Virus record (IMG/VR): IMGVR_UViG_3300027805_001017 | Span: 1-34,213 of that record | DNA length: 34,213 nt | From: a virus | Direction: 5' to 3' (one strand) | Shown: positions 1-17,580 of the stretch, one piece after another | How positions within the stretch are numbered: the stretch's first letter is position 1 | How the letters are laid out: each line of letters begins with the position of its first letter | Program-made: the position numbers and the translations under genes | Notes under the pieces: generated by a model | Seen by the model: only the letters and a program-made list of their open reading frames with translations | Databases searched by the model: none | Told to the model about the DNA's origin: nothing

Positions 1-3000
1 CCAGTAGGGATAGGTGCGATGAGACCGCCGCCAAGGTTGAACAGGGTGACGAAGTTGCTGTTGGACGAGTATCTTGCCCTGTGATGGCGAGCGTCCATGA
101 CGACGAGTGCGTCCTTTCTGGACTGGAGTGCCCTCATGGCGTACCAATTGGTCATGACGCCACGGTAGGCATTGTCTTCGCCAAGCGGGATGGTGTCTGG
201 GAAGTCGTAATCACCTGCGATAGAGTCGCCCAACTTGGCCTTGAGTTCATTGTGCCTTGCCTTCAGGACGTCCAGTTCAGGGTCTGGCGTGTGGCCAAGG
301 TACGTGTTGACGATGGCTGGGGCGTTGTTCTCGAACATGCGTCCGAGCATGGTCCTAGCATGAGCAGGCTGAGAGACCCTAGACCTAGACAGGGCGTACC
401 CGCTGGTCGAATCCAAGTCGACGTCGGTGACCCTAAGCAACTTGTGGCCCGATTCGTCGAGTTGTTCCAATTGCTCGGCTGTGACCTTGTCTGGTTCGGT
501 CAGCGTCAGTCGCATGATTTCAGCCCTTTCCTTGGTCACCGAGCCAGAGGGCCAATCGCCGTCTGCGTACTTGGACCTGTCCAAGTGGTCCACGAAAGCG
601 GACGGCTCCATTCCTAGAATCTGAGCACGTAGCCTGAGGTCAAAGGCGACCTGATGTACGGGCCTGAGTTCAAGGAACCTGTGTCCCATGCCTGAATGGA
701 TTCTGCCAAGTATCTTCTTTGCGTTTTCAGCGGCTTGGCTGTGCCTGACCTTGCCTCCGCTATATGATTCTGCGGAAGAGACATAGTCATTGATTCGAGC
801 GGCAGAAAGGATGACGGGCATCTTGCTGCCCAAGAGTTCAGGCGTATCGGCGGTGTGGTATTCGCCCCTGTTTATGTGCGGCGAGGTACGCTTGTTCTTG
901 AAGTCGACGATTTGAGAGCCGTCTTCGTAGTAAGCGAGTTCAAGGTACCTGACGGCCCTCAGCGTCGTGGATTTCCACTGCTTAAAAAGCATATGATTCT
1001 CACGCCTTGCGTGGCCGCTAGGCAGTGAGTCAGGGGTTAACTTCTCGACCCTACGCCTGAAGTCCATCAAGGTCTCCATTGCGACCTTGTCGTAGTCTAC
1101 GGGAGGCCTTTGGACGCTGTCTAGGTCCAGTTCATAGAACTGACCGAGTTCGTCTACCTTAGCCATGAACTCCTTGTTGAATTGCAGGCCAATACTTGCA
1201 ATAAGCATGGCCAATCCATGCGGGTTGGTGTTGCTTGAATACCTGAACATTGCCCTCGTCGATGTTCCTACAAGTCCAGCGTGTTCGTTGTTGCCGTAGC
1301 CGTAGAGCAAAGAATACAGGTCGGACTCCATCGGGGCCATGTTGCCGTTCAAGTCCTCATGAATCATTTCAAACAGTCTCATGTGCACGCCGCCGTCATA
1401 GTTCAGGTCAAACACGACTTCTGGCACGTAATCTTCCTTCATGCCATACTGCTCCTGAACCTGTTTGCTTACTTTGTGGCGGACCTCGTGGTTGAAAGCA
1501 ACCGAAGTATCATTGTTTTGGCTGAGGTATTCCCTCGCTATCAGATACCTGAACAGCGGAGTTCCGTTGTCCCATTCGTACCTAGCGATGAAGTTATACA
1601 GTGCGTCCCTGTGCTTGTGCTTGGTGGAATGGGTGAGGTACGCAAGCGGTGCGGAGACGTTGGCTTTTGCGTTCTCCTTGTCGGCAATTTTCTGTTCCAC
1701 CATCCTGAACTCACTTACTAGGGACGTGGCTTCGACTTGCTCAAAGGTGGCTCCGAGCATGGCGTCCTGCTTAGGACCGAAGGTGGAACCTTGGTATGGG
1801 TCCGACTGAAGTTCTTCGACGCCCAGCACTGCGAGGGTGTCACGGCTTAGTTTCAGGGAACTTGCCACCTCTCCGATAGGTGCGTTGGCACGGTGATACG
1901 CCGTCACGATGACGTCGCTGTGGCGTGCATGGCCAAGTTGCATGGTGCCAGACGGGGTGGTCTTGTGGCCGCTGTTCCTTGTCGCCCCTTTCGCAGATTT
2001 CCTGACCGACATGATTCGCTCGGCGGACTTGTGCTGTCGCAACAAAGCCTCCTTCTTGGCTGGGTCGGATTCGAGGTTGGCCATGTCCTTGAGGCCACGG
2101 ACGTAGTTTTCTCCCTTTTGGATTTCCAATTCCGTGTACAGGGTATCCCACCTGTATGAGCCGATGCCGCTGGTGTACCCGACATAATCAGGGACGGAAT
2201 CGACCTGTTGAAGGCCATACGCAGAAGCGTCTGCTTGGGTCGCTTGGTTCTGCACGCCCTTGCCAGTGACCTTCCTCGTGGGCGGAGGCTCAATCCTAGA
2301 GCCATGATAAGACGTGTTCATCGCCAGACCCCAGTTTGAAATCTCGTTCAAGGTGGTGTCCGAAGTCCTGAAATCGGCGATGGCTAGGTCGAACCCAGAG
2401 AGACGAGCGGATGCTTCCAGCCTAGCCCTAGCGAAGGCGTCGTTGAACAGGTGCCTGTACGTCGCCATTACTGGCTCGGTGATAGCGTCAAAGTTCCTGA
2501 ACTCTTGGAGCATCATGTCTGCGACCTGACGCTTGGGCAGGGCATCCTTGCTGATGTCGGATGCGTTCTCAAGAAGGTCGGGCCTCGAACCAATCTTCTC
2601 AGCCCTGTCCTTTTCGTAGAATTGCTCGAGTGCCGACCTGAGGGCATCGTCGTGCATCTTGCGGATGTTGGCCAGATAGGCGACCATCTCGCCCTTCTGG
2701 TCTTCTGGTGCAGACTCGATTGCGGCTTCAATGGTCTTCAGGTGCCTATTTCGTTCGGCCAGAAGCCTGTGTGCGGCAGACCTGATTGCGACAGTGGGCG
2801 AGGTAATGTTGCCCACATAGGGAGTCTGTAACCTTTCGTGATTGAGGCGTCCAGTGGTCGGGTACATCGCCCAGATGAACTTGGCTACTTCCTCCTTGGT
2901 AATCTTGTGCTCCTTGTGGTCGTAGAGAAACTCGGCCAGACCCAAGACACGCATCTCGGCCTTGGAAACCTGATTCTCCATGAACATCTCGTACCATTCG

Positions 3001-6000
3001 CTACCAGTAGCGATGTCCACGGCCTTCTTGACCTTCTTGAGGGCACCAGATTTGTTCTTCTCCATCATGGGCACCATGGCAGTCCTGAGGATGCTCAGGG
3101 CTTTCGGTGCGAACTGGATGTAGGAACCACCCACTGCGAACTGTAGGCCACGGCGGATGTCATGCTCGTACACGCCTACGTCGCCGACGGAAAGGTTAAT
3201 CCTGTCCCTAGACGGTGCCTTGCCAGTGATTGCTTCGGTCCTAAGGAGCATTTCCTGAGCGGCCTTTGCCTCCGCACGGCTTGCAAACGTCTTGTCGACG
3301 TTGCCTACGAAGTAGGTGCCGTCGGCTGTGAAGATGTCCTTCTCATTGCCGTCGTAAGTTGCGGCGGCGTCGGAAACAAACTCTGGGTTGAACTTGAGGC
3401 CAGCGTTGATGTCAGCCTTGCCGCTTGTGCGGCTGTGGGCAAGTGAGGGGTCAATGTCCTCCAGCCTAAACTGGCCTTCCCTGAACAGGATAGAGGGGAT
3501 TTCAGCCTCGATGCCGCCTTGAGACACCCTATCGGCATGTGCCTTCGCTTCGCTTTCTGTCCTGAAGGCCGAGACCTTTCGGGTCTTAATCGGGTTGCCT
3601 GCCTTGTCGACGCCGCTGACGACGTCGTGGCCGACGAGATATCCACTCTTGTCGCTCTTCCTGATGATAGAGACGTTGGCCTTGCTCTGGGCGTCCCAAG
3701 CATACCTTTGCAGATGCGGGGAGTTGGGCATGATAAGGTCGATGACTGCGGACCTGTCTCCGTTGAGTGCAATAGACCTCTCAACGTCAGGCATAAAGTA
3801 TCCGCCCTCTGAGGACGTCAGTCGTTCATGCAATTTGCCCAAGTCTGCAAACACCGACGGCATGAGGAGGCCATACCTCTGTGCAGAAATCTGGATGTTC
3901 TGCGTAGTCGACGAAGTGCTCTTTTGTGCACCAGTGTCGGCGTAGCCGAAATCAGAAGGCCTTGCCCTTGCTTCGGCCCTATTGTCGATTCTGATGGCGA
4001 GATAGTTGTCGATGGCCGACTTGACTGACGCAATCTCATTCGAGGTGGCGTAACCGTTCAAGTGGGGGCTTCCGTCCGCAGGCAATGAACTTCCGCCCCT
4101 CCTGTACGCACCGTTCTTTTGGTTTACCCCATACCTTTCGCTGGTAAGCAGAAGGTTGCTGTGTGCCACTTGAGTGAAGAACGCATGCTGTATGTCAGCC
4201 GCCGTTGCGTTGGCAGGTAGTATGACGGTGACATAACCATCCTCAGGGCTGGCCATGGAAGCGAATTCTGCCATGGCAAGAACCCTAGCAACCTTGGCGT
4301 CTTCATTAGTGAAGTCGTCAAAGTCCATGACCCTGTCTCCGCTCATGATTCTCTGGTATGCGTCAAAGATAGCGTCGGGCTTTTCGGCATATTTAGAGAG
4401 TTGCTGCTTCGACATGCTCTTGATGTTGGAGCCTCCGTAGACACGCTGTGCGATAGCCTTTGCACTGGCCTCGTACTGGGCCCTTACCATCGGGTCGATG
4501 AAGTCCATGTGCGAAGCCGAGCGGCTTGCGATGGGGTTGTTGTCCCTAGTCGAGGCGAACCTTCTGATTATCGACAAGGGGGACATGGGGGTCAGGATGC
4601 CAGATTCGACGTCCCACCCTAACGTACGTCTGTGAGAAAAACCTAGCGGGGTGCTGTAATCGGTACCGTTTGACACGTCCAGATAGCCGCCAATGTTGGT
4701 GTCGGGAGCGATGTTCAGCATGATGCGTCCGTCTTCAAGACGCTTCCATGCAAAGCCAAGGCTTGGCCTGTCCCTCTCAGAATACCTTGCAGAAACAAAA
4801 GACTGTCCGCTGAAAGCGATGGGTACGGCGTCCTGCTCGTAGAACATCTCAGCCCTCCTGTCCTTATTGGAAATACCCTTGAACGTAGCCTGAACACGCT
4901 TTGAGGACGTGAATCGGGCTGGCTGTACCGAGACCTCGGCAGAGCCAAGTTGCTCTGCGGCGGCGGCGAGCCTGTTCACTAGCAGTTTACGCCTAGATAC
5001 GACGCCGAGCGGATGCTTGCGTGTCTGCACCGTGACATTGGACGTTCTGTCGCCCGTTCCTACCATGAAGGGAGTGAGGACACTGCCGCTGATGTCCGTC
5101 GTATACCAAGCGTCCTTAACTCCAGACGAGGTTCCTTCTACGTCTATCGGCATCGCCTGACGGACGGAGTCTACATGGTGTCCGATGGCATCGAACAGGC
5201 TGACGGGGGTCTCGCTTTGAACGTGAACCCTCGTGCTTTCATTGCCTGCCACGAGACCGAATATGTCAGTTTCGGAGATTTTCTTACGCTTGTTCGTCGT
5301 GCCGAACGCACCACCGAAACCAGATTCAGTGTCGTATTTGTCGACAGGGAAGGAATCTACGTCAAGGCCATCGCTGGTGCTTCTTCTATAGGAAGGCATC
5401 GGCCTTCCATAGACTAGCGTCTCTTCGCCCTGCATGTACGCCTTCGACCTGTTCCTGACCTTGCCGTGTCCCACATAGGGGTGAAGACTGGGCCTGCGGG
5501 TCTCGATTTCCTTTGCGGCGGCAAGGCCGAAGAACACGCCACGCCACATGTCAGGATTCAGAGAGGACTCCTTGATTCTGGCGTGCATGTATCGGTTGAC
5601 CTCAGGGTGCTTGCCCTTGAGTCCGTCGCTTGTGTACATCTGGCTGTCGCCGAAGTAATCGTCGAAGCCATGAATGGCACCCATTTCGTTGGCCTTGTTA
5701 AGCCTGTCGGCCCTAGTCGGATGCTCAGACGCCAAAACGTGCATCTGGAGCATGTTCATTCTCAGGACGACTCCGTCGATTACGGAGGCACTGGAGCATT
5801 CATAAAGGAGACGCTGTAGGTATCCAGCATCCATGCCACCAATCCACTCGGTGAGTTTTGAGTTGAAGGCGGCGGCTTGCGTCTGGTCACGCATGTCGGT
5901 CTCCTTGGCCATATCGACCAACTCAAGGAACTTCTCGGTCCTGATGCCACGAGACCTGTGCAAGATGTTTTCTCCCGAAGTGACTGGGAAGCCGAGCGAA

Positions 6001-9000
6001 TCATGTGCCAGCAAATAAGGAGCAATCATCAGGCCCAGCACTCCGTAGTTCAGATTCCTCCCGCTCAGGAAGGCGTTTCTGGTCATAGCATGGTTGCTGA
6101 AGATGCCGCCCGTCTGGTAGTCCGTGTTGATTTGGTCACGAAGGTTATCCGTTGCAAACCGAAGCAGGTCTCGGCTACCAGCCGTCATCATGTCATGGTA
6201 CGACAGGAACGTGTTGTGACTTGCGTACATCAGACCGCCGATAACGGTGTAAGCGTTGCTGGTCATTTCGCCACTAAGGCCTTGGGCTACCTGATTTTCT
6301 GGATTTAGTCTTTCAAGATACCCAAGCATCAGGGGGTTTTGCCTGAGCGGAGACAGGACCATTTGCTCGTCCCGCTTCACGGCGGAGCCGATGAGCCCAG
6401 TAATCACGCCCTCGATGGCATGTGCCGTCATGTTCATCTGTTTCTGCACGGCGGACGGCATGCCTTGTTCGACGCCAATCGCAGGAACGACGACGGATGT
6501 AGGCTGGTCTGGCTCGGCAAGGGACAGGTCGACGTCCACAAAGGTCTTGTCCCTGATTTGAATTGCGGAGGTTCCAGCCGCTTGAACGGAGGAATTCATG
6601 ACAAACCTATGGGGAGTCATTACCTCAATCGGAGCCTCGTCGCCGCCACGAGTCCTAGGAATGCCATTCTTGTCTACCATCACGGCACCATGGTTGGCCG
6701 CAAATGCGGACACCGAGTCCAACTGCATCGTTAAGACTTCGGCGAGGTCCGCTTCGTCGGCTTTCGCCATCTCAATCCTCTTGTCCAGTTCGTTTAGGAG
6801 GCTGGAGAACGCTTGGTCTTGGGACATGCCCTCGGCCATCAGGGCGTCCAGTCTCTTGAAAATTTGCTCGCCCTGCCATTCTCCCGAAATGAGGTTTTGC
6901 CTGCTTTCATTCATCTTGAGGCCAGTCTGGACCCTCAGAAGCCTTTCTTTCATGTCCGCCGTGTTTTCGGCCCTCTTGGAGACAGCCTCGACGTAGCCAC
7001 GCATTCTGCCCATGATGCCACCCATGTCGCCGTCGCTCCAGTTGCCATGGACGTATTTGAACTGCTCGGTCAGGGCGTGCTGGGCTCCAGTGAGGTAGTC
7101 AGTAAGGCCTCCGCCAGTGTCTTGATTGGACATGTTGGCCTCGGAGACGATGCCAAGATACCTCCTCTCCTTGAGTTGCATGGCCTGAGCGGGGGCTACG
7201 GTCACGCCTGATTCAACTCTTGCGAGTCCTTCTGCTGGGACGCTACCAAACAGGAAGTTGCCATGTAGCATGTGCAGTGACGGCATGAGTCCGCTGACTG
7301 GGTGGGACGTGCTTCGACCCCTTTGGTTCATACCGCCAGATTCCCTAAGTTTAGCCGCTGGCGAGGTTTCGCCGAAGACTCTCTGGAGTCCACGTGCGGC
7401 CTGCTCGGTGGCGTTGACCGTGCCTTCCATCCCGCCAATCCTAGCGTAGATGTCCATGGTGTTTGCTTTCTGTCCAGAGTACTGGTCGGAGAAGGCAATC
7501 CTGAGTGCGGCGATTTCGACGTCCTCCATCATGCTCATCCACAGGATTCGGGCTCTTTCAGGGCTCTGGTTGTTCTGCTGAACCACGAACTCGTAGGCCT
7601 TTTCCATGACAGGTTCCATCAGGACGGAAAGCCTGACCATCCTGTCGTTCATCTTGGAGGCAATGTCATAAGCCTCGTTCTTCGTCATGCTGACGCTGTG
7701 CTGTACGATTCTCTGGCTTACTCCCTTGGACAGCCTTTCTCTGAATGCGGCGACGTCCGCAGGAGGGATTCCAGCCGCCAACGCATCGTTGAAATGAGGT
7801 GCCTCAAAGGTGATTTGTCCTCCAGATACCTTGAACCTTCCATACTTGTAGTCTTTCCCACGACCATAGAAAGGCCTGCTGTGGTTGCCCTCGTGAACCG
7901 CCTCAAGTAGCCTGACGACCTTGCTCCTGACCAACTGAGGGTACAGTTTAAGGACCCTCATCTTCATCTCCTTGGTGATTGGCCTTCCAGCGACTGGCTT
8001 CGCCCTGTTCGTTCCGATGTTTGCCTCGGACACGTTGTAAAGCATCTCCATGTCGGAATGGTTGAACGCCATGATGTTGAGCAGGTCGTTCTTGGTGAGC
8101 ACCCTGTCTGGGTTCATCCTCTCGACAACGTAGTCAAGCAGGACGGTTGCCGCCGATTCCTGACTATAGTCGCCGAGCAACCCCTTGATTTCCTTTACAG
8201 AAAACACTGGCGGGAAGTCATCGCTTGCCACCTTGTCCATGACGGAATTGCCGAGGCTCAGGATGTCTTCAGACTCAATCTTGATTCCTGCGATTTCAGC
8301 AATGTCTGCGATGGTGTAGGTTCCGCTTTCCTTGGCCACGCCGCTGACAGCGTAAGCGGTACGGTCACCTGTCTCCACGGAATCGGGCCTGAACTTTGCG
8401 GCCAATGATTTGACTGCGGAATCGAAATCTCCAGAGACCACGTAGTTGCCAGTGACCAGCGTCATCTTGCCGTCGACCACTTCCCATCCCTTCTGCTGGA
8501 CGAAGAACCTCCTGATGTTGGTGTATTCGGTGCTGGCCTTGGAGAGGAAGAACCTAGCCAGTGACATCTTGCCGAGCAACGTGAACGCAGTGTTGTCTGC
8601 GTAGTCCTTGCTCTCGCCGATGCCGCCAATGGACATCATGACCGTCTTAATGGGGCTAACATAACCCCTGTCGAATGCGTCAAAGGAAGCAGTCTGCTTC
8701 TCCATGAGCCCTTTTGTCGTTTCCACCGTGGACGAATCCATGGCCCTCTGGACGATGCTAAGGACCGAGCCTTGCGGAAGTGCGTCCGTAGTATAGGTTC
8801 TAGGGGTATTTGCTAGGTCTTCCTGACTGAGCATCCGCCTATCCTCGGTCTCACGGGCCATCCTTTCGGAGGGGGCCATGATGTAATCCAAGTCGATGAA
8901 CTCGTCAAAGGCCTGCCTGATGAGCAACTTACGCTGTTGGGGCGTGGCTTTTTCGATGGCCACCACGCTCCTGACAAGGCCGAGAGCGGAGATGGCCGCC

Positions 9001-12000
9001 CTGAACTCCACGTCGAAATGGGAGTGTGCCGAGTAACTCGGGTACTTGCTCCTGAGTTCTTCCCTGACGGCCATCATCTCCTTGTAGGTAGCGAGGGCGT
9101 CTTGGACGTTTTGTACCCCGTCCTGAGCCCTGTCTAGGGCCAGCATCCTGCGGGAGAGCGACTCGTCCATCCTGCCAGCATCGACTTCAGCGGCCACGAA
9201 TGCGGAAAGGTTGCGTACTGCTGTCTTGAGCAGGGGCCTTGCATTACCGCTGAGTTCCCTGAAGACGGGCGAATCCTTGGCCAAAGCAATCCTGCTGGCC
9301 AATGCGTTGATGTCCTTGGTGGCTGTGATGTCTGCGTCAGACCAGATGGAGTTGCTCTTCATAGCCTTGCTGATGACCTCTCCGTCGGCGAAGTTGGTCC
9401 TCAGCCCAAGAAGGTTGGCAAAATGACCGATGGTCACCTCCTTGTTCAGTTGGAAGAAATGTCCATGCTCACTGTTCATGTTTGCCCTGTACTGGAGCAC
9501 GTGCTGGGCTTCGTGCAGGACGACGGACGCAAGCGGGTTCTGGGCGATATGCTTGGCTGTGGCGGACTGACGGTCACTGAAGATGAGACCTTCTGGGTCG
9601 TTCTTCATGTTCAGTTCCGAGTTGGCGAAAGACCTGATGCCAAGTTCGATTAGGTGCTCTCCGTTAGGAAGGGTAGAGGCGAAACCGCCATGACTATCGA
9701 CCCAGCGTACCCTGACGTCTCGCATTTCGGGGTAGTAGTAGTACATGGTCTCGTGGCCGAAGACCTTTCCTAGGGTGGTGTCCTTTCCGATTTGCTTGTG
9801 GAAGGGGATGTACTTCTCGGACTTAGGGTCAGCCGCCCTACGCTTGACCTCAAATGCGTAATCGGAAAAGGCCTGCTCTGCGTCAGGCATGCCAGCGAAA
9901 GGAAGCAGGTGGGGCTTGTTCTGTACGGAAGACAGGTCGAGGTAGGCATCTGCATCAGAGAACTCAAAAACGAGCAGGTTCTTGCCGCCGAACTTAATTT
10001 CCTTGGCCAAGCCAGAGCGGATGACCTCCTCACGCCTGCTAGGGCTTAGGTCGTCGACACCGCCGACGGAGAAACTCCGCCTGTAAGTCTGCTCTGCGGC
10101 TTCGTGAAACTTCTTCTGGCGAGCCCTGCTTGTATTTACACGCTTGGTCAGGGCTTCGGCGTTGTAGCCAAACAGCCTGTGAAACTCAGAAGAGGTTCCG
10201 TACTCGTAGTGCAGTTCAATGAGCGTCTTTTTTCCGCCGACATCCCACAGCGAAGACGCACTCGTGTTGTGGTCTGCGACTGCCTCATGCCAATAGCGGG
10301 TGGGTGCGGCCTGCAACTCAGCCTGATACATGGGGTGGCTCGCATCGTATCCTCTGGAGGCGAACCTAGACCTTGCCATGTTCTCGTCTGCGGCCATCGC
10401 CAATTTCTTGAAAGAAATAGCCATTTCAAGGCTGGCTTGATTTCCAGAATCCAAGGCAACGTCGAACAGGCCCTGTGCAAGGGTCATCGGGTTGTTGTCC
10501 TTTGCGAATTCAGACCACACCTTTACGACGTTCTGGTCGCTTTCCTTGACGGAAGAAACCAGCATGTAGGAAAGGTCTCTTGCGACGTTGGGAAGTTCGG
10601 ACTTTTCAAACCTAGCACCAGTCAGATAGTCTACGATAGTGTTAGGAAGTGCCGAAAACGAGGGCAGAGGAGCCAACGCTTTGGCATTGTTCTGCAATTG
10701 GCCAGTCGGGACTTCTGTGCCACCCTTGACAGAATCTCTCCTGTTGTTGTTGTAAACCTTATAGACGATGCCGATGCCAGTTACTAACTGGCTGGCGTCG
10801 CCTTCGTACCTGACGGAAACAAAGTTAGACCTTCTTGCCGCTCCTGCGATAGGCTCAACCTCTGGCATAACCTGTCTGCCGCCAGTCCTTCTGTTGTGAT
10901 TTGGGCCGACATCGAGCATTCCAGAAGAGTCGATTCCAAGGTCTGCGTACTGAACGTCGCTGTACTGCTGGTGAAGCGTATGGTTGAAAGCCTCTTTTGC
11001 CACGTACAGGAAGTCGGCCCTCTTGGATTCTGGGAGAGACTCTAGGTACTTTCTGAACGTCCTAGCGTTCCTAGAGTAGTCCATGTTCGGGGACATGAAC
11101 ACGGTAAGACCACCCGAATTCACCACGGGAACGGCGACGCCGTCCTTGTCCACCAAGTTAAGTTGCCTGAGCGATTCGATTACGGCCTTGTTTTCAGGCT
11201 TATCCCACTTTCCATCAAATACTTTATCCAGTTTTTCGACAGTCGCTTGCCTGACGTCGCTCTTTCCCTCAAAGAGGGCTTCGTCGAACAGTTTCTTAAT
11301 CTCGGTAGCGTTTGAAGACTTCCTAATCTGCTCCCACCTAGGCTGTTTTGCGTCTTCGCACCACTCGTGTCTGGCTATAACCCTGTCGTATGCCTCCTTG
11401 TATTCCTTCGGGAGTTCTTTGCCTTCAAGCCTTGCGTCTGCAAGCAACTTCCAGCCTTCTGCGATAGACTGCTGAATAGGCCTGTTCTGGATGGAAAGAC
11501 TGTCTACCCTCTTGACGACGGTAGAAGTAAGGAGGTTTCCGTCGTGATAAGAACGTGCAATCTTAGACAGGTGGGACTCCATGAGGTTAGTGAACACCTC
11601 ATTGGCCTTTTCCTGAGACAGGACGTCAAAGAATGCCTTGTCGAAAGTGATGGTCGGAAGCGAGTCCGACTTGTGCTCGGTAATTTCCATCGGCGAGCCA
11701 AGAATGGCAAAGTCGACCTTCCTCTTGTCCCTAGGCATGTCATCCTGCCTGATGCGGACGCTTTCAAAGAACCTCGCAGGCAGTCCGTTGCTGATGGCGT
11801 ACTGGCTGAACTTTTGCTTTTCGCTCTCAGGGTAAAAATCAAACAGGTTCATCCCCCTGCCAATCATCCTAGGGTCGGAAATCTTCCTTACAAAATCGGG
11901 AGTTTCGTTACGCTGTAGGGTAATGCCGATTCCGCCTTCCCTCACTCCGTCAACAGACAGGCTTCCCCTTGCTTTGAGAATCTTGGACTGCTGATAGTTC

Positions 12001-15000
12001 AACTTGTCTTCCTGAATCCTCTTCAGCCTTTCGGGCCTGTTCATCTGCGACCACTCTTCGTCAGTGGGCATGGCCAGCACATCGGCTGGGTCCATGTCCT
12101 TACGTAGGTGTTTCTGAGCCGCCTTAAACGCTTTGTCCTTGTCCCTGTACCTGCCCACGAGACCTCCGAAGGGGCTGAACACCTTCCAACCGCTGGACTC
12201 GCTGTTGCGTTCACGGATTACCCTGTAGCCCTGTCCGTTGCCGAACATGTTGGCCGAGATTTCTTCAAAGCCAGCGACGGAAAGGTTACGCCTAAGGGGC
12301 TCGTAGGACCTGCCGTGGTGGTACGGGAACGGTGCGGCGGAGATTCGCTCGACGCCAATGAGGTTCTCCAGTTTCAGCGAGTGAATCGGGAAGTTGGGGT
12401 TCTCGTGACTGCTGAAATAACCCTCCCTAGGGGCGTTGAGGTACGACTCGTCCTTCCTCTTACTGGCACCGAAGGTCTCATACATGATGTCTCTGACCTT
12501 CTCTGCGTCGGCACCGAACTTTGCCCTGAACAGGGTGGCGGAATCGACACGATTAGCAGGGTCTTTGAGGAAGTTCAGCAGATACTCATGGAAGTCTGCG
12601 TTGAACTCGCCGATGTTGGACCAGAGGGCTTTTACGTCGGCACGGGACCACGTCTTGATTTGCCTGCGGTGAATGGCCGTGTAGTCCATCACGGTGGCCG
12701 TGAAGCCACCCCTAGGTGCCCTGAGGCTCTTGCCGTTTCCGTCCGTAGTCCTGAGGTAGACCTTAAGTTCAAACGGGACGAACACTCTGTTGGTGGCAGG
12801 CACGTCGTCTCCGAAGATACGCTTAAACAGGTTGCCGACGGAAGTGCGGTGGCTGTCGCCGATGTTGATGCCGTAGACAAGGTTGCCAGTGGCGAAGCCG
12901 CTGGACTCGTACTGCATGTAGGTATCCCTGAACACCTTGGCCACACGGCCAGATTCTGGGTCAAGGAAGCCGCCATCCACCATGGCGTCGATGACCTCGT
13001 CCTTCATGGTGTAAACGTCGGCGGACCTGTTGCCATGCTCGTCTACCGTAATCTTGGGCTTCAGGTCGTCGGGCAGAGAGTCGATGACCTCAAACGCACC
13101 CTTGGCGTTGTTGGCGGACATCTCATTGCGTTCCTTTTCGCCCTTGAGCGTGGCACCATTCCCACGGATGTTGAACAGGAACTCCTTGCGGTGCTTTTTG
13201 GCGACAGCCAACTGCATCTCAGGGGAAAGGTTGCTGATGGGGCCGTCGTTGACGGACCTAGCGGCCTCAAGCATGTTCTTGAGGACGTTGTCCATGGCGG
13301 GGTGCCTGTAGTAGACACCGTCGTCATAAATCATGGCCTGAATGGTAGGCCTGTTATCCTTAGTCAGGGGTGCACCATACTTGGCGATGACGCCAGCAAG
13401 TTCTAGTTCGGTCTGGTTCCTCGCCAGACGCTCGGTGAACTTGCGTTCAAAGTACATCCTGAGCGGCTTGTCCTCTGGGGCAAGGATGAGGTCCTGAAGA
13501 TTGGTGTGGATAAACATGTTTTCGGCATGCTTACCAATAAACTCCTCAAAGATGTATTGGATGGGAGACTGACGCTCTCCCCTTCTCCCAATAGTAGAGA
13601 AGTAGATGTTGGGAACCTGCTCGCCTTCGATGTTCTGAGTTTGGTGAAAATCGTTGAATTTTGTTGCGGCCCTGAATTCCTTAATGGCCCTTTCAAAGTA
13701 TTTACGGCTTCCGACGGTATCAGCGTTGGCATTGTAGATTTCGTTGGCGACCTGCCTTGCCTCCTCGATGGTCATGCCCTGCTTCCTGTTGAGGGCTTCC
13801 TCAAGGGACATACGCAGAGCCACCTCGGTCATCTTTTCGTCAGGGATGGCACCCTCGTTTTCCTTTATTCCAAAGAACTCTATGAGGTGAGTTCCGAGTT
13901 GGCCACGGGTCTGGAGATTCCAGATTGCCATGTGTGACAAGACTTCGTGTCCGAAGTCGGCAGGCCTGTACTTTTCTGGGTTGAGCCAGATAAGCGGAAT
14001 GATGTTGCCGCTCGTGTCACTAACTAGGCTGAATTGACCCCTGCCCCTAGGGTCGAGATAACGCATCGGGTCTACGACGCCACGGGCGGCGAGGACCTTT
14101 GCCATTTCCTGTGCGGGCAGGGTGCCTGCGATGACCTGCTTCTTCTGCTTGGCATCAAGCATGAGGTGCATCTGCTGAAGGACCATCCTAGCATTGGCGG
14201 AGGTCTTGCTGGACTTTCCAAGGTCAGCGTCGGCGACGACCTTGCGTGCGAAAGATGCGAAATCTGGGCTCCAGCCCTGCTCCAACTTGGGAAGGAGACG
14301 CTCGTCGAAATCCTTGATAAACCTCTCGTGCTGTACGAAGCCGTTGATGTTGCTCCAAAGATGACGGACTGCACCGCTGTAACCGCCCCAGACCATGCCC
14401 ATGGCGGCACCGCCGACGGCACCACGCTCCCTGTCGTTCATGTAACCTAGGCCAGCGAAGAAGGCGGCGTCCTTGTAGCCATGCTTCAGTGCGGAGGTGG
14501 ACATTTGGAGAATCGGGTCCACCGTGACGTTGAGGAACTTGGCGGCGTTACGTGCGGAACCGCTCAAGAGTTTGTTGCCAGCGACACGCTCCAGCACGGA
14601 GAGGCCATTGACGGCCTGTGCGGGGATGGCACCGCTTGCCAGAAGGCTGGCTTGCTCGCCGATTTCACCAGCCAGTTCAGCCGTGGTCCTGAGACCAAGG
14701 GAGCCGAGATAGCCTACGGTCTGCCTGATTTCGCCAGCACCCACGTCAGCCATGCCGTTGATGGCGGTTGCGGCGGTGATGTTTCTAGCCTGAGCGGAAC
14801 TGACACCGCCCCTTGCCGCAAGTGCGTCGATGTTCTTTCCGACGACGCTTTCCACGAGATTGGCTGGGATTGAGATGGCCTTGGAAACGCCAGTGGCGAC
14901 GGCACCAGTAGCCCTAAGTGCCGCACCCGAGGCGAGGGCGTCCAGCCTCTTTCCAGTCTCGGTAAGGGTTCCCATGACTCGGGCATACGCAGAAGCCTTT

Positions 15001-15800
15001 GCGGCCTGTGCGGCGGTCTGCATGACCGATTGCCTGCCTGCGGTAGCGATAGCCATGCCGACGCCAGCACCGCCAGTAAACGGAGCGGTCAGCAGGGACG
15101 GAAGTTCGAGGCCGATAAAGGAAACAGCATGGGCAATCTTAGGGTTGGAAAGCGACCTAAGTTTCTGTGCGGTGGCTTCCGACATGTTGACGTACGGAAG
15201 CGTTTCGTAAACGGACATGTCTCCGTTCTGGATTTTGTAACTATCCCAAAGGAACTTGCGGGTTTCGTTCCACTGCTGGGCTTCTTCTTCCCAGTTCTGG
15301 GAAATCTTGCCGCTCTTGATGGCATTGATGGTAGACTTGGCCCAGAACAGCGGTGAGGTCGGGTTCTCCGACTCTCCAATCATGCCATACAGGTCACGGA
15401 CCGAGCGGACGACGCCTTCAGCCGAAGAAGCCGCAATGGTCAGTGGGTTGCCTTTCTCCTCCACGACGCCCTCAATGAATGCGGCTGGAACTTTTGCGAT
15501 TTCGCCGCCGACCTCGGCGATTTGCTCCATCCAGTTGACATGCCTGTTGTGCATGCCCTTAACCAATTTTTCCCAGTGCTGTTTGGCGTCTGACCTGCTA
15601 AGGTCGATAATCTTGTTGGGATTGGCCGCATACCATTCGGCCAAGTTGTCCTCTTCGGACGCCTTAGGGATGCCGAACTCGTCGGCCTTTGGGGCAGACG
15701 GCTTTAGACTAAGCCTGCCGCCAGCCATACGCAGGGCTTCTGCGTACTGGGCGGTCTTGTTGTAGTCTTCTTGCGGCGGGAGGAGGGGGTCGGATTCCAT
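1..15800 (-). CDS. Giant polyvalent (DarB-like) virion-associated protein, at least 5266 aa, 3' end beyond window
   Basis: One frame is open from the ATG at 15800 to the left edge; I checked the triplets of most lines and found no stop. The start overlaps the previous stop (TAATG), with no Shine-Dalgarno. Residues 1-580 are helical and Ala/Gly-rich, with hydrophobic stretches near 225-250 and 443-482. HEVLSH lies at 618-623. A zincin-like domain covers about 1905-2105, with HEAQH at 2096-2100. Residues about 4250-5245 carry the linked motifs of the EExQSD domain of phage polyvalent proteins. That family comprises large multi-domain proteins often ejected with phage DNA, such as P1 DarB. The position after a run of internal-protein-like genes fits a packaged, ejected protein similar in role to T7 gp16 or N4 vRNAP, but packaging is inference. 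I saw no lysozyme, helicase or RNA polymerase signature. A tape-measure role is less likely because of the enzyme-like domains. Confidence 0.9.
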   Translation of the reverse strand, partial: MESDPLLPPQEDYNKTAQYAEALRMAGGRLSLKPSAPKADEFGIPKASEEDNLAEWYAANPNKIIDLSRSDAKQHWEKLVKGMHNRHVNWMEQIAEVGGEIAKVPAAFIEGVVEEKGNPLTIAASSAEGVVRSVRDLYGMIGESENPTSPLFWAKSTINAIKSGKISQNWEEEAQQWNETRKFLWDSYKIQNGDMSVYETLPYVNMSEATAQKLRSLSNPKIAHAVSFIGLELPSLLTAPFTGGAGVGMAIATAGRQSVMQTAAQAAKASAYARVMGTLTETGKRLDALASGAALRATGAVATGVSKAISIPANLVESVVGKNIDALAARGGVSSAQARNITAATAINGMADVGAGEIRQTVGYLGSLGLRTTAELAGEIGEQASLLASGAIPAQAVNGLSVLERVAGNKLLSGSARNAAKFLNVTVDPILQMSTSALKHGYKDAAFFAGLGYMNDRERGAVGGAAMGMVWGGYSGAVRHLWSNINGFVQHERFIKDFDERLLPKLEQGWSPDFASFARKVVADADLGKSSKTSANARMVLQQMHLMLDAKQKKQVIAGTLPAQEMAKVLAARGVVDPMRYLDPRGRGQFSLVSDTSGNIIPLIWLNPEKYRPADFGHEVLSHMAIWNLQTRGQLGTHLIEFFGIKENEGAIPDEKMTEVALRMSLEEALNRKQGMTIEEARQVANEIYNANADTVGSRKYFERAIKEFRAATKFNDFHQTQNIEGEQVPNIYFSTIGRRGERQSPIQYIFEEFIGKHAENMFIHTNLQDLILAPEDKPLRMYFERKFTERLARNQTELELAGVIAKYGAPLTKDNRPTIQAMIYDDGVYYRHPAMDNVLKNMLEAARSVNDGPISNLSPEMQLAVAKKHRKEFLFNIRGNGATLKGEKERNEMSANNAKGAFEVIDSLPDDLKPKITVDEHGNRSADVYTMKDEVIDAMVDGGFLDPESGRVAKVFRDTYMQYESSGFATGNLVYGINIGDSHRTSVGNLFKRIFGDDVPATNRVFVPFELKVYLRTTDGNGKSLRAPRGGFTATVMDYTAIHRRQIKTWSRADVKALWSNIGEFNADFHEYLLNFLKDPANRVDSATLFRAKFGADAEKVRDIMYETFGASKRKDESYLNAPREGYFSSHENPNFPIHSLKLENLIGVERISAAPFPYHHGRSYEPLRRNLSVAGFEEISANMFGNGQGYRVIRERNSESSGWKVFSPFGGLVGRYRDKDKAFKAAQKHLRKDMDPADVLAMPTDEEWSQMNRPERLKRIQEDKLNYQQSKILKARGSLSVDGVREGGIGITLQRNETPDFVRKISDPRMIGRGMNLFDFYPESEKQKFSQYAISNGLPARFFESVRIRQDDMPRDKRKVDFAILGSPMEITEHKSDSLPTITFDKAFFDVLSQEKANEVFTNLMESHLSKIARSYHDGNLLTSTVVKRVDSLSIQNRPIQQSIAEGWKLLADARLEGKELPKEYKEAYDRVIARHEWCEDAKQPRWEQIRKSSNATEIKKLFDEALFEGKSDVRQATVEKLDKVFDGKWDKPENKAVIESLRQLNLVDKDGVAVPVVNSGGLTVFMSPNMDYSRNARTFRKYLESLPESKRADFLYVAKEAFNHTLHQQYSDVQYADLGIDSSGMLDVGPNHNRRTGGRQVMPEVEPIAGAARRSNFVSVRYEGDASQLVTGIGIVYKVYNNNRRDSVKGGTEVPTGQLQNNAKALAPLPSFSALPNTIVDYLTGARFEKSELPNVARDLSYMLVSSVKESDQNVVKVWSEFAKDNNPMTLAQGLFDVALDSGNQASLEMAISFKKLAMAADENMARSRFASRGYDASHPMYQAELQAAPTRYWHEAVADHNTSASSLWDVGGKKTLIELHYEYGTSSEFHRLFGYNAEALTKRVNTSRARQKKFHEAAEQTYRRSFSVGGVDDLSPSRREEVIRSGLAKEIKFGGKNLLVFEFSDADAYLDLSSVQNKPHLLPFAGMPDAEQAFSDYAFEVKRRAADPKSEKYIPFHKQIGKDTTLGKVFGHETMYYYYPEMRDVRVRWVDSHGGFASTLPNGEHLIELGIRSFANSELNMKNDPEGLIFSDRQSATAKHIAQNPLASVVLHEAQHVLQYRANMNSEHGHFFQLNKEVTIGHFANLLGLRTNFADGEVISKAMKSNSIWSDADITATKDINALASRIALAKDSPVFRELSGNARPLLKTAVRNLSAFVAAEVDAGRMDESLSRRMLALDRAQDGVQNVQDALATYKEMMAVREELRSKYPSYSAHSHFDVEFRAAISALGLVRSVVAIEKATPQQRKLLIRQAFDEFIDLDYIMAPSERMARETEDRRMLSQEDLANTPRTYTTDALPQGSVLSIVQRAMDSSTVETTKGLMEKQTASFDAFDRGYVSPIKTVMMSIGGIGESKDYADNTAFTLLGKMSLARFFLSKASTEYTNIRRFFVQQKGWEVVDGKMTLVTGNYVVSGDFDSAVKSLAAKFRPDSVETGDRTAYAVSGVAKESGTYTIADIAEIAGIKIESEDILSLGNSVMDKVASDDFPPVFSVKEIKGLLGDYSQESAATVLLDYVVERMNPDRVLTKNDLLNIMAFNHSDMEMLYNVSEANIGTNRAKPVAGRPITKEMKMRVLKLYPQLVRSKVVRLLEAVHEGNHSRPFYGRGKDYKYGRFKVSGGQITFEAPHFNDALAAGIPPADVAAFRERLSKGVSQRIVQHSVSMTKNEAYDIASKMNDRMVRLSVLMEPVMEKAYEFVVQQNNQSPERARILWMSMMEDVEIAALRIAFSDQYSGQKANTMDIYARIGGMEGTVNATEQAARGLQRVFGETSPAAKLRESGGMNQRGRSTSHPVSGLMPSLHMLHGNFLFGSVPAEGLARVESGVTVAPAQAMQLKERRYLGIVSEANMSNQDTGGGLTDYLTGAQHALTEQFKYVHGNWSDGDMGGIMGRMRGYVEAVSKRAENTADMKERLLRVQTGLKMNESRQNLISGEWQGEQIFKRLDALMAEGMSQDQAFSSLLNELDKRIEMAKADEADLAEVLTMQLDSVSAFAANHGAVMVDKNGIPRTRGGDEAPIEVMTPHRFVMNSSVQAAGTSAIQIRDKTFVDVDLSLAEPDQPTSVVVPAIGVEQGMPSAVQKQMNMTAHAIEGVITGLIGSAVKRDEQMVLSPLRQNPLMLGYLERLNPENQVAQGLSGEMTSNAYTVIGGLMYASHNTFLSYHDMMTAGSRDLLRFATDNLRDQINTDYQTGGIFSNHAMTRNAFLSGRNLNYGVLGLMIAPYLLAHDSLGFPVTSGENILHRSRGIRTEKFLELVDMAKETDMRDQTQAAAFNSKLTEWIGGMDAGYLQRLLYECSSASVIDGVVLRMNMLQMHVLASEHPTRADRLNKANEMGAIHGFDDYFGDSQMYTSDGLKGKHPEVNRYMHARIKESSLNPDMWRGVFFGLAAAKEIETRRPSLHPYVGHGKVRNRSKAYMQGEETLVYGRPMPSYRRSTSDGLDVDSFPVDKYDTESGFGGAFGTTNKRKKISETDIFGLVAGNESTRVHVQSETPVSLFDAIGHHVDSVRQAMPIDVEGTSSGVKDAWYTTDISGSVLTPFMVGTGDRTSNVTVQTRKHPLGVVSRRKLLVNRLAAAAEQLGSAEVSVQPARFTSSKRVQATFKGISNKDRRAEMFYEQDAVPIAFSGQSFVSARYSERDRPSLGFAWKRLEDGRIMLNIAPDTNIGGYLDVSNGTDYSTPLGFSHRRTLGWDVESGILTPMSPLSIIRRFASTRDNNPIASRSASHMDFIDPMVRAQYEASAKAIAQRVYGGSNIKSMSKQQLSKYAEKPDAIFDAYQRIMSGDRVMDFDDFTNEDAKVARVLAMAEFASMASPEDGYVTVILPANATAADIQHAFFTQVAHSNLLLTSERYGVNQKNGAYRRGGSSLPADGSPHLNGYATSNEIASVKSAIDNYLAIRIDNRAEARARPSDFGYADTGAQKSTSSTTQNIQISAQRYGLLMPSVFADLGKLHERLTSSEGGYFMPDVERSIALNGDRSAVIDLIMPNSPHLQRYAWDAQSKANVSIIRKSDKSGYLVGHDVVSGVDKAGNPIKTRKVSAFRTESEAKAHADRVSQGGIEAEIPSILFREGQFRLEDIDPSLAHSRTSGKADINAGLKFNPEFVSDAAATYDGNEKDIFTADGTYFVGNVDKTFASRAEAKAAQEMLLRTEAITGKAPSRDRINLSVGDVGVYEHDIRRGLQFAVGGSYIQFAPKALSILRTAMVPMMEKNKSGALKKVKKAVDIATGSEWYEMFMENQVSKAEMRVLGLAEFLYDHKEHKITKEEVAKFIWAMYPTTGRLNHERLQTPYVGNITSPTVAIRSAAHRLLAERNRHLKTIEAAIESAPEDQKGEMVAYLANIRKMHDDALRSALEQFYEKDRAEKIGSRPDLLENASDISKDALPKRQVADMMLQEFRNFDAITEPVMATYRHLFNDAFARARLEASARLSGFDLAIADFRTSDTTLNEISNWGLAMNTSYHGSRIEPPPTRKVTGKGVQNQATQADASAYGLQQVDSVPDYVGYTSGIGSYRWDTLYTELEIQKGENYVRGLKDMANLESDPAKKEALLRQHKSAERIMSVRKSAKGATRNSGHKTTPSGTMQLGHARHSDVIVTAYHRANAPIGEVASSLKLSRDTLAVLGVEELQSDPYQGSTFGPKQDAMLGATFEQVEATSLVSEFRMVEQKIADKENAKANVSAPLAYLTHSTKHKHRDALYNFIARYEWDNGTPLFRYLIAREYLSQNNDTSVAFNHEVRHKVSKQVQEQYGMKEDYVPEVVFDLNYDGGVHMRLFEMIHEDLNGNMAPMESDLYSLLYGYGNNEHAGLVGTSTRAMFRYSSNTNPHGLAMLIASIGLQFNKEFMAKVDELGQFYELDLDSVQRPPVDYDKVAMETLMDFRRRVEKLTPDSLPSGHARRENHMLFKQWKSTTLRAVRYLELAYYEDGSQIVDFKNKRTSPHINRGEYHTADTPELLGSKMPVILSAARINDYVSSAESYSGGKVRHSQAAENAKKILGRIHSGMGHRFLELRPVHQVAFDLRLRAQILGMEPSAFVDHLDRSKYADGDWPSGSVTKERAEIMRLTLTEPDKVTAEQLEQLDESGHKLLRVTDVDLDSTSGYALSRSRVSQPAHARTMLGRMFENNAPAIVNTYLGHTPDPELDVLKARHNELKAKLGDSIAGDYDFPDTIPLGEDNAYRGVMTNWYAMRALQSRKDALVVMDARHHRARYSSNSNFVTLFNLGGGLIAPIPT
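66..3053 (-). other. EExQSD (DarB-like polyvalent) domain region of the giant protein (residues about 4250-5245)
   Basis: Linked motifs occur in the order known for this phage polyvalent-protein domain. First is a helix-turn segment, GLAEFLYDHKEHKITKEEV, near residues 4287-4307. Next is a region with GHARHSDVIVTAYHRA near 4625-4640, leading into GVEELQSDPYQG, where EELQSD is 4662-4667. Last is a segment starting at W5219, NWYAMRALQSRKDALVVMDA. In relatives the last two parts usually lie close together; here about 550 residues separate them. The biochemical activity of this domain is not something I can state from sequence. Confidence 0.6.
9486..10088 (-). other. Zincin-like metallopeptidase domain inside the giant protein (residues about 1905-2105)
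   Basis: The translated stretch ends in VVLHEAQHVLQ, with HEAQH at residues 2096-2100: two zinc-binding histidines and the catalytic glutamate of the HExxH motif in a hydrophobic helix context. Ahead of it come a VFGHETMYYYYPEMRDVRV segment, a short beta hairpin with a Gly-Gly turn, and EHLIELG. That order (tyrosine/proline helix, beta strands, then LHExxHxxQ) is the one I know from zincin-like domains in phage and conjugative-element polyvalent proteins. The third ligand is not assigned; a downstream histidine/glutamate-rich stretch (SEHGHFF) is one candidate. Cleavage of a phage or host protein is inference only. Confidence 0.72.
13521..14033 (-). other. Candidate atypical metallopeptidase segment with HEVLSH (giant protein residues about 590-760)
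   Basis: A stretch with strands and turns (QFSLVSD, NIIPLIWLNPEKY) runs into DFGHEVLSHMAIW, placing HEVLSH at residues 618-623. The spacing is HExxxH, one residue longer than the usual zincin HExxH; HExxxH is known from dipeptidyl peptidase III (family M49). About 110 residues later comes IQYIFEEFIGKHAE, which could supply an acidic third ligand. The surrounding pattern resembles zincin domains of polyvalent proteins, so this could be a divergent or inactive copy. No family assignment is made. Confidence 0.35.
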
Positions 15801-16765
15801 TACTCTAGAGTGGTGCTACTGTTTTCGTAAAGTTCGTTACGGGGGCCTGACTCACCTTCTTCGTCTTCTACGAGGAAGTCCACACCGTTCGCATTAGCCG
15901 CACTCCTGAGTTTCTCCTTAGCCATGGTCCTTACCTGCTTGATAAGGGCCGTCTCGTTGCCCTTGAACCTAGTGAACCAACTGGACGCACGCTGAGGGGT
16001 CATGGACAAGGCCATCGCCAAGTCCCTGTCGGACGTGTTTCCGCCGACGCCCTTGGTTCCCTGCATGACCTTCATGAAGTTCATGGCAATGCTGGCTTCA
16101 AGGGCCCTAGCCTCGGAGGAGGCTTCGCTGTAGCCGAACCCAGTGAGCATGGCGTTCTTTTTGTAGATAGATTCCAGTTTGGTCAGGTTTCCGAAGAGGG
16201 TCTGGGTGTCGGTCATGAGGCCCCTGAAGGCGTCAGCCGCCTCATCCCCGCCTTTGAACGGCACGTTGGTGACACCGTATTGGGAGGCATAGGCATGAAC
16301 AGGGAGTTCCTTGATGCCGTCTGGGGTGGGAACCTGCCTGCTACCCTTAGGGATAATCCTGAAAGTACTGCGTTTCACCCTGTCTGGGTTCTTTTCGTCA
16401 ACCCCATCTGAAAAGTCATAGGAGTCGTACATCTGGAACACGTTCCTGCCTGTCTTTGAGCCAGTCAGGGATGCGGCGGCACCCATGTCGTCGACGACGT
16501 TGGCGTAGAACTCTGCGTCACGGGCGAACCTAGACGGTTCCTCTGAGGCCTTTTGGCTTCCGCCACCGCCCATGCCCATGCCCATGCTGGGCTGGCCACC
16601 GCCACGCTTCCTGCTGGAAAACAGCGGAGCCGCCTCGATGAGCGGGTTGAACCCAGCCTGTTTGGCCATCATGGAACGCTCAGGGTAGTAACCGCCTTCA
16701 CGCTGGGACTGGCCAAGGACGTCCTGAGGGCTGACCTTGAACTCTTCGTCGTATCCAGAGTCCAT
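15800..16765 (-). CDS. Putative internal virion protein, 321 aa
   Basis: Not recognised as a named family. The N-terminal third is flexible, with a Gly/Met-rich linker near residues 58-70, and the rest is mainly helical. The C-terminal part (NTSDRDLAMALSMTPQ followed by a long basic helix) resembles a recurring pattern in podovirus virion proteins, where a short S/N-x-x-D-R/I turn precedes a PxxxS-type helix. It ends in an acidic, Glu/Ser-rich tail. The start codon overlaps the stop of the upstream 271-aa gene (TAATG), and its own stop overlaps the giant gene start, so the three are probably translated as a coupled unit. A role beside the giant protein in the virion is inferred from position. 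Confidence 0.8.
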   Translation of the reverse strand: MDSGYDEEFKVSPQDVLGQSQREGGYYPERSMMAKQAGFNPLIEAAPLFSSRKRGGGQPSMGMGMGGGGSQKASEEPSRFARDAEFYANVVDDMGAAASLTGSKTGRNVFQMYDSYDFSDGVDEKNPDRVKRSTFRIIPKGSRQVPTPDGIKELPVHAYASQYGVTNVPFKGGDEAADAFRGLMTDTQTLFGNLTKLESIYKKNAMLTGFGYSEASSEARALEASIAMNFMKVMQGTKGVGGNTSDRDLAMALSMTPQRASSWFTRFKGNETALIKQVRTMAKEKLRSAANANGVDFLVEDEEGESGPRNELYENSSTTLE

Positions 16766-17580
16766 TATTCCTGACCCTCAGGCTCCTGCCAGTCGAACTG
16801 AAGTGCGGTGTAGGAAGTGCTCTTGTCGTCTCCCTTCACTGGGGAGATGACTACGACACGAGGTTTGCCGTCTTCGGTGCGAGCAAGCCCCGGAAGTACG
16901 TAAGGTTCCTTGATGGCTTTCTCAAGAGCCTTGGTGTCGGCTGTCTTGGCCAAAGCCTTTACGAGTTCGTCATGGACAGCCTGACCAGCATTCGGGTTTT
17001 TCAAGGCCGCTCTACGCAACTGCATGTAGCGTTCCTTTCCCATGTTGTCCACGGCGGTCTTGACCCACTGGGAGTCCTTGGTGACGGAACCGTAAAGTTC
17101 TGCGTTAAAGCCGCTGGAGCCGAGAAGTTTCGTCTGCTTGTAGTCGTCTACAGCCTTGGCACGCTTCTCGTCGAAGCCTTTGTTTGGGGTGCCTCTTGCG
17201 TCCTTCTTGGGCGTAGGCTCGCCAGACATCATGTAAGCACCGAGGCCACCAAGAGCACCATAGCCACCTGCCTGTGCGGCATATCCTGCACCAGTAAGGT
17301 TTCTGTATCCGCCAGTGGAGGGGATGGCCTTTTCAAGGAGTGCGTCAGGCTCGTAGCCTCCGCCAGAGCCGAAACTAAACTTAGGGCCTCGCTTCTCAGG
17401 CCTGCCAACGTTCTTATACTGCATCGGACCACGTGTCCTGACGCCGAGGCCAGAGGCAATGTCTTCGCCCCAAGAGCCAGGATTTAGCCTGCTTTGGCTA
17501 AACCATTCACCGAGAGATTTCCCCTTACCTTTCCTAGTGAGGTTCCTGAGTCCACGAGCGGCTGATTTTAGAATTCCCAT
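16765..17580 (-). CDS. Putative virion protein with cationic amphipathic N-terminus, 271 aa
   Basis: Function unknown. It begins MGILKSAARGLRNLTRKGKG, a short helix with lysine and arginine on one side and leucine/isoleucine/alanine on the other, of the kind that binds membranes or nucleic acid. A Gly/Tyr/Ala-rich stretch follows near residues 90-118 (GYRNLTGAGYAAQAGGYGAL), then a helical C-terminal half (DDYKQTKLLG, QVHDELVKALAK-like repeats of helix) and a beta-rich end (PRVVVISPVKGDD). The start is six bases after the upstream stop, without a Shine-Dalgarno. Its place next to the giant gene and to other low-complexity virion-like proteins suggests an internal or ejection protein; this is inference. 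Confidence 0.8.
   Translation of the reverse strand: MGILKSAARGLRNLTRKGKGKSLGEWFSQSRLNPGSWGEDIASGLGVRTRGPMQYKNVGRPEKRGPKFSFGSGGGYEPDALLEKAIPSTGGYRNLTGAGYAAQAGGYGALGGLGAYMMSGEPTPKKDARGTPNKGFDEKRAKAVDDYKQTKLLGSSGFNAELYGSVTKDSQWVKTAVDNMGKERYMQLRRAALKNPNAGQAVHDELVKALAKTADTKALEKAIKEPYVLPGLARTEDGKPRVVVISPVKGDDKSTSYTALQFDWQEPEGQE

Follow-up and report, generated by a model that had tools for sequence, protein, structure and literature searches.

A giant, cysteine-depleted protein encoded at the end of a virion operon is a probable ejection cargo of a podovirus-like phage lineage

The stretch of DNA analysed here (the window) corresponds to an entire IMG/VR record, 34,213 bases long, and represents a fragment of a phage genome. 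Its virion genes form one minus-strand run encoding the large terminase subunit, a portal-size protein of 752 residues, a scaffold-size protein, the major head protein, an Hc3-like head-closure protein, products of 505, 271 and 321 aa and, last, a giant protein. Matches to PHROG profiles identified the large terminase subunit (31382..33010, minus strand; phrog_2, E 4e-16), the major head protein (26135..27580, minus strand; phrog_1328, E 1.5e-34) and the Hc3-like protein (20915..22348, minus strand; phrog_578 and phrog_3287, E 1e-7 and 4e-9), and from its size and place the 752-residue protein is presumably the portal. The 505-aa gene (17587..19104, minus strand) is the third gene ahead of the giant; its Cys-free product, 411-695 aa long in relatives, is rich in proline, asparagine and glycine. 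It is followed by a glycine-rich 271-aa gene (16765..17580, minus strand) and a 321-aa gene (15800..16765, minus strand), both encoding no Cys and both, from their place, candidates for small ejection proteins; neither matched a known family or any known ejection protein in our searches. In the close relatives, as well as in one other record, G006, a counterpart of the 321-aa gene immediately precedes the giant. On the opposite strand, the major head gene is overlapped by a 462-codon open frame (window 26183-27571, plus strand), and plus-strand frames of 513-537 codons also occur at this place in three close relatives (G001, G002 and G004); these are probably a shadow of codon bias, though their position is conserved.

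The giant gene (3..15800, minus strand) starts with an ATG that overlaps the stop codon of the preceding gene (TAATG), remains free of stops for 5266 codons and leaves the window, its 3' end lying beyond the record. The complete giants of relatives, together with the end of the gene in a further close relative (G003), place the missing C-terminal part at about 450-470 codons plus the stop, for a total of about 5,720-5,740 codons. The initial annotation had proposed a real gene of at least 5266 codons with a product above 570 kDa and had advised extending the contig leftwards to find the stop. The gene is indeed open and coding-like throughout and complete in independent records; the mass holds for the part seen, the whole product being about 630 kDa, and the extension came from relatives that contain the whole gene and from G003, which covers the end absent from the window. 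Codon usage trained on the neighbouring genes favoured the giant frame in every 200-codon block, and the frame is therefore not a chance one. Comparison of the window with G003 gave an omega (dN/dS) of 0.084 overall and of 0.03-0.14 per 300-codon block, and the gene is under strong purifying selection.

Scans of IMG/VR recovered complete giants of 5,715-5,749 aa (629-636 kDa) from close relatives: 5737 aa in G001 (record of 48,615 bases), 5715 aa in G002 (48,775 bases) and 5749 aa in G004 (48,761 bases). The last record carries a direct end repeat of 127 bases, which indicates a complete genome, about 35% of it taken up by the giant. These three proteins aligned with the window end to end at 47-71% identity, and the giant of G003 was 93% identical across the 4,847 residues that it shares with the window. 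The first distant relative, a frame of 6262 residues, surfaced while we were searching phage zincin proteins. A profile of residues 781-1281 (W numbers below are residues of the giant as encoded in the window) was then searched and returned 25 loci, most of the newly found ones having 28-39% identity within this block. In the more divergent members, whose best block reaches about 32% identity, complete frames ranged from 5,615 to 6,428 aa, the longest corresponding to about 695 kDa. The giant was thereby found in at least 25 further records of uncultured phages, 26 including the window, and all readable members were collinear. In G005 the longest ORF turned out to lie antisense and was left out. 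The contigs measured 28-50 kb, mostly 44-50 kb, one giant occupying about 40% of its contig, so that across the lineage the gene accounts for about 35-40% of a genome of about 48 kb. A tblastn search of cultured phages and plasmids with the giant returned nothing at E values up to 1 and 0.1, and one pattern scan of GTDB genomes found no relative of it.

Searches of Pfam, PHROGs and PDB sequences with the giant, distant members included, yielded no match, PDB hits at E 0.1-1 being noise. Because no Pfam or PHROG family matched, we built motif-based reference sets from IMG/VR. The clearest domain recovered in this way spans W1943-2355 (8736..9974, minus strand) and contains HEAQH at W2096-2100 (9501-9515) and a glutamate at W2312 (8865-8867). 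A reference profile of 98 independent polyvalent proteins with the motif HEIQHAIQ matched it with E values of 6.6e-9 to 8.6e-15 in six close members and as low as about 1e-30 in distant ones; among 189 controls, shuffled or reversed, the best reached 8e-3. With a deep alignment, hhalign gave 99.6% (E 3e-24), and all other slices of the giant scored far weaker. The zinc histidines H2096 and H2100, the catalytic E2097 and E2312, which fits the third ligand, are invariant in the alignment, and by profile and motif W1943-2355 can be assigned as a phage-type zincin peptidase, in agreement with the zincin-like domain first proposed for this protein. A further candidate lies towards the N-terminus (13431..14123, minus strand), with HE(V/A)L(S/G)H at W618-623 (13932-13949) and a glutamate at W753 (13542-13544). 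H618, E619, H623 and E753 are invariant in the rows covering them, bar one truncated, misaligned row. Support from hhalign against a HEAxGH set was weak (30-45%, P 2e-4 to 6e-4), this slice being the best among those tried against that set, and the HE(x)xxH at W618 together with E753 would fit a candidate second zincin in the chain.

Near the other end, an EExQSD domain (1761..2183, minus strand) carries GHxR at W4623-4626 and EELQSD at W4662-4667 (1800-1817). With few close sequences this match was near noise, and it became convincing only after distant relatives were added: hhalign with the deep alignment then gave 83% over the domain (P 9e-6, 109 columns) and 94.5% over its core (P 8e-8). 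The EELQSD motif is invariant in the 22 members covering the region. It is preceded by an element at W4264-4309 (EMRVLGLAEFL..ITKEEVAKF; 2874..3011, minus strand) that also precedes EExQSD in polyvalent proteins, where 72 of the 81 proteins with EEIQSDWHQ have it, in the form GLxxFL...TKxEVxxF, at a distance of 106-399 residues ahead of that motif. A profile from 51 independent sequences, selected without a regular expression derived from the giant to avoid bias, matched W4264-4309 at E 1.5e-8 (best control 0.09). The spacing between element and EELQSD in the giants, about 350-440 residues, is at or past the long end of the reference range. The initial annotation had called this domain DarB-like; its EExQSD identity is upheld by the profile, whose sole match is to EExQSD proteins, and the DarB attribution is not. 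Both the zincin and the EExQSD motifs remain invariant down to about 30% identity and are confirmed by independent phage polyvalent proteins, and by these two domains the giant belongs with this class. No Pfam or PHROG match was obtained, in the slices searched, to the methylase, helicase or ParB domains of the DarB/DdrB type, and by these profile searches the giant is not a DarB.

Profile searches in slices, as had been advised, thus recovered the zincin and the EExQSD domain and no Pfam or PHROG family. Most of the chain was expected to lack recognisable motifs, and more than 80% of it (4,000 or more residues) indeed has no counterpart in the polyvalent set or anything else searched. Two of these stretches are nevertheless well conserved across four genomes: an N-terminal block at W1-562 (14115..15800, minus strand; 80% mean column identity) and the most conserved block, W781-1281 (11958..13460, minus strand; 84%), which serves as the family signature. 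The region around W220-500 is rich in alanine and glycine (32% A+G in residues 250-500 of the G001 giant), and a hydrophobic peak lies near residue 222 of the G001 protein. AlphaFold predictions of W1800-2560 and W3960-5000 (7 sequences) had a mean pLDDT of 40 for both and gave no usable model. By eye, W1205-1233, W4046-4092, W4160-4190 and the C-terminus of the relatives resemble each other in a pattern 'G..V.......F.....EA..AA'; these stretches may be a recurring small fold or due to chance, and BLAST found no internal repeat.

The giant is strongly depleted in cysteine. Only 78 Cys were counted in the 136,546 residues of the 26 giants, and the three complete close relatives have 0-4 Cys each, where the composition of the remaining genes in each genome predicts 55-66 (P 1e-21 to 1e-29), the baseline being a mechanical ORF set that includes one ORF antisense to the head gene. 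The depletion extends upstream, where the 321-, 271-, 505- and 169-aa genes encode no Cys, compared with 6-8 in the terminase, portal-size and Hc3 proteins. A similar contrast was found in well-studied phages: known ejection proteins of T7, P22, N4 and phiM5 have one Cys in 9,255 residues and the other virion proteins checked in these phages 62 in 10,338 (P 3e-16, a value that overstates the case since residues are not independent). The single Cys occurs in T7 gp14, with none in T7 gp15 and gp16, in P22 gp7, gp20 and gp16, or in N4 gp50, gp51 and gp52 (0 in 4,294 residues; 0 in 3,500 for the virion RNA polymerase, vRNAP, alone), and the depletion of the ejected set goes in the same direction in T7, P22 and N4. 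The three internal virion proteins of phiM5 likewise have none, as have many of its other virion proteins. Cys-free virion proteins that are not ejected exist (scaffolds, P22 gp26 and several of phiM5), and the signature is correlative. Large zincin polyvalent proteins from other viruses, 51 in number, had a median of 0 Cys, an observation made on HEIQHAIQ polyvalent ORFs at least 1,500 aa long (loci L163-L282).

The most plausible explanation of these observations, to which we assign a probability of about 0.7, is that the gene encodes a giant virion cargo or ejection protein of a podovirus-like phage lineage. The best reading in our view is an ejected cargo resembling the N4 vRNAP without the RNA polymerase, and hence a new giant family of polyvalent proteins. 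The position at the end of a virion operon, behind internal-protein genes, was correctly anticipated, as the giant comes after the 271- and 321-aa genes and is last in the run. Two small genes and one large one thus close the virion run as in podovirus ejection sets, and the placement of ejection genes after head and tail genes follows the same order in P22 and T7. Furthermore, the giant lies near the virion genes of a phage with a terminase and, by size and place, a portal, the setting of polyvalent proteins. The proposal that the protein is loaded in the head and ejected gains support from the Cys depletion, a signature it shares with known ejection proteins.

As an ejected cargo, the giant would be the last and largest member of a cassette comprising the 271-aa protein, the 321-aa protein and the giant itself; the 505-aa product may serve in host range or be ejected as well. 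Stored in the head, the giant could exit by way of the portal and then the short tail, its small domains following one another in a chain. Following the model of small ejection proteins drawn from T7, P22 and N4 (PMC8954989, PMC12633501), the 271- and 321-aa proteins would form a channel across the envelope, and the giant would be ejected with or after both. Inside the cell it might partly stay at the inner membrane, with parts acting at or beyond it, and its domains would act on host targets early in infection. An early-infection or anti-defence role, as initially suggested, might then apply. The zincin may act on the giant itself, cleaving it either before it leaves the head or once it has entered the cell, or its targets may be proteins of the host; cutting of its own chain by a zincin has been proposed for P1 DdrB (PMC5512222). 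Whether such a protein must pass the portal unfolded or be cut first was fairly posed as a dilemma, since the N4 vRNAP offers a precedent for uncut passage and the zincins leave room for cleavage. A protein built like beads on a string may get through a channel of roughly 35 A uncut, as described for the N4 vRNAP (PMC12633501), which has 3,500 residues, is present in 4 ± 1 copies, is ejected with two small proteins and is itself a polyvalent protein with an HExxH domain (PMC12633501; PMC5512222).

Several known systems resemble the giant in part. N4 gp50, of the Schitoviridae cassette gp50-gp51-gp52, is likewise a large, last ejection protein beside two small ones, with an HExxH domain, zero Cys and a proposed beads-on-a-string ejection (PMC12633501). 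However, the giant has no recognised RNA polymerase module, is 1.6-1.8 times longer and showed no sequence similarity to gp50, and the N4 genome measures 70 kb against 48 kb. Polyvalent proteins with a zincin metallopeptidase and LPD-type domains (Iyer et al. 2017, PMC5512222) share the zincin, the EExQSD domain and the virion-operon context, and most of the large ones are also Cys-free; the giant differs from them in its unmatched majority and in an architecture that is fixed across the lineage rather than mosaic. Its chain joins the zincin, EExQSD and the candidate second zincin, and no second enzyme activity was identified among them. In P1, DdrB has a zincin at its C-terminus and undergoes cleavage ahead of packaging (PMC5512222). 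The gp16 proteins of T7 and P22 are similarly Cys-free and encoded after two other ejection genes but have only 1,318 and 609 residues, no known zincin and no detected sequence similarity. In length the giant exceeds the 5,002-residue P23-45 tape measure (PMC10770324), and a larger polyvalent protein, of 12,242 aa, has been reported from a Streptomyces plasmid (PMC5512222).

The likeness to gp50 also raises the alternative that the giant is an N4-type virion RNA polymerase whose core has become too divergent to recognise, a doubtful reading that nevertheless fares better than the others. The operon place, size class, HExxH domain and freedom from Cys would all be shared, and the genes scanned yielded no recognisable RNA polymerase gene. 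Nevertheless, the lack of Pfam and PHROG matches extends to polymerase families, DxDxD and R...K...YG fall at no family-conserved column (at most 8 of 26 rows), and the middle of the chain is the least conserved part of the giant. By the tests made, it is not an N4 vRNAP. Three individual candidates were rejected: motif C at 'HDSLGF' (W3266) and motif B near W2385, the key residues of which vary even among close relatives, and a DxDxD at W5126, which just 8 of the 26 aligned members contain.

It is somewhat less probable, and on the whole unlikely, that the giant is the tail tape measure protein of a very long-tailed phage with enzymatic domains fused to it. The gp96 of Thermus phage P23-45, a giant ejected-type virion protein of this kind with a fused RNA polymerase, shows that tape measures can attain such a length and carry enzymes (PMC10770324), and a tape measure would be ejected too. 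However, gp96 belongs to a siphovirus, and the giant has none of the tape-measure features: self-comparison gave no internal repeats or off-diagonal hits, the PHROG tape-measure profile reached only E 0.21, and three conserved enzyme-like blocks are dispersed along the chain. The recognised head and connector genes match podovirus-type families (P22-type Hc3, LUZ24-like terminase), no tail tube, sheath or chaperone genes were recognised, and a tape measure gene would be expected upstream of the tail genes, not last in the virion run.

A polyprotein of the infected cell, absent from the virion and processed into individual enzymes by the zincins it contains, appears more improbable still. Two zincin-type motifs in a single chain would suit such a product, and genome place alone does not prove incorporation into virions; on the other hand, virion-operon place and lack of Cys in combination match ejected proteins. 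Polyproteins are rare in phages. An assembly join or frameshift fusing separate genes, which the initial annotation had named as a refutation, or a chance frame, with exceptional size as the sole argument for either, is refuted by the collinear frame in 26 independent records, stop-free inside in four independent close genomes and 16 distant ones, and by an omega below 0.14 in all blocks.

What is new is a giant family with a fixed architecture in a single phage lineage. As an ejected cargo, the giant would bear on the passage of very large proteins through a channel of about 35 A, an open question resting almost wholly on the N4 vRNAP. The family offers chains nearly twice the length of that protein, in small genomes, with a fixed domain order and natural length variants, and with such material the unfolding, beads-on-a-string and pre-cleavage models become testable through their differing predictions. 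We know of no earlier report that ejected proteins are depleted in Cys. Within a limited literature search, the word 'Cys' was absent from the text of a review of ejection proteins (PMC8954989). Absence of Cys is possibly a general signature of delivered phage proteins, and a Cys count would then be a simple sequence test for them; the proposal, made in 2017, that phage polyvalent proteins are delivered with the DNA gains support from the zero median of the large zincin-bearing ones. We consider about evenly balanced the joint proposition that a lineage of roughly 48-kb phages devotes 35-40% of its genome to a single ejected protein of 630-695 kDa, one that would rank with the largest individual chains that any virion delivers, and that freedom from Cys is a general signature of portal-passing proteins, a Cys-free block marking the ejected set of a podovirus and the pattern fitting most large polyvalent proteins.

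Beyond the virion genes, a complete relative encodes exonuclease VIII, an O-like replication protein and an Erf-like annealing protein. In another record, G027 (49,988 bases; L442, L443), the two ends of the contig hold parts of the giant in compatible frames, suggesting that the genome is complete and circularly permuted. The annotated phage with the nearest terminase is C75C1 (L026, OQ984151.1), at 31.7%. Its very large genes showed no significant similarity to the giant; the virion run of C75C1 also ends in such genes, unnamed and encoding about 2,770 and 1,343 aa.
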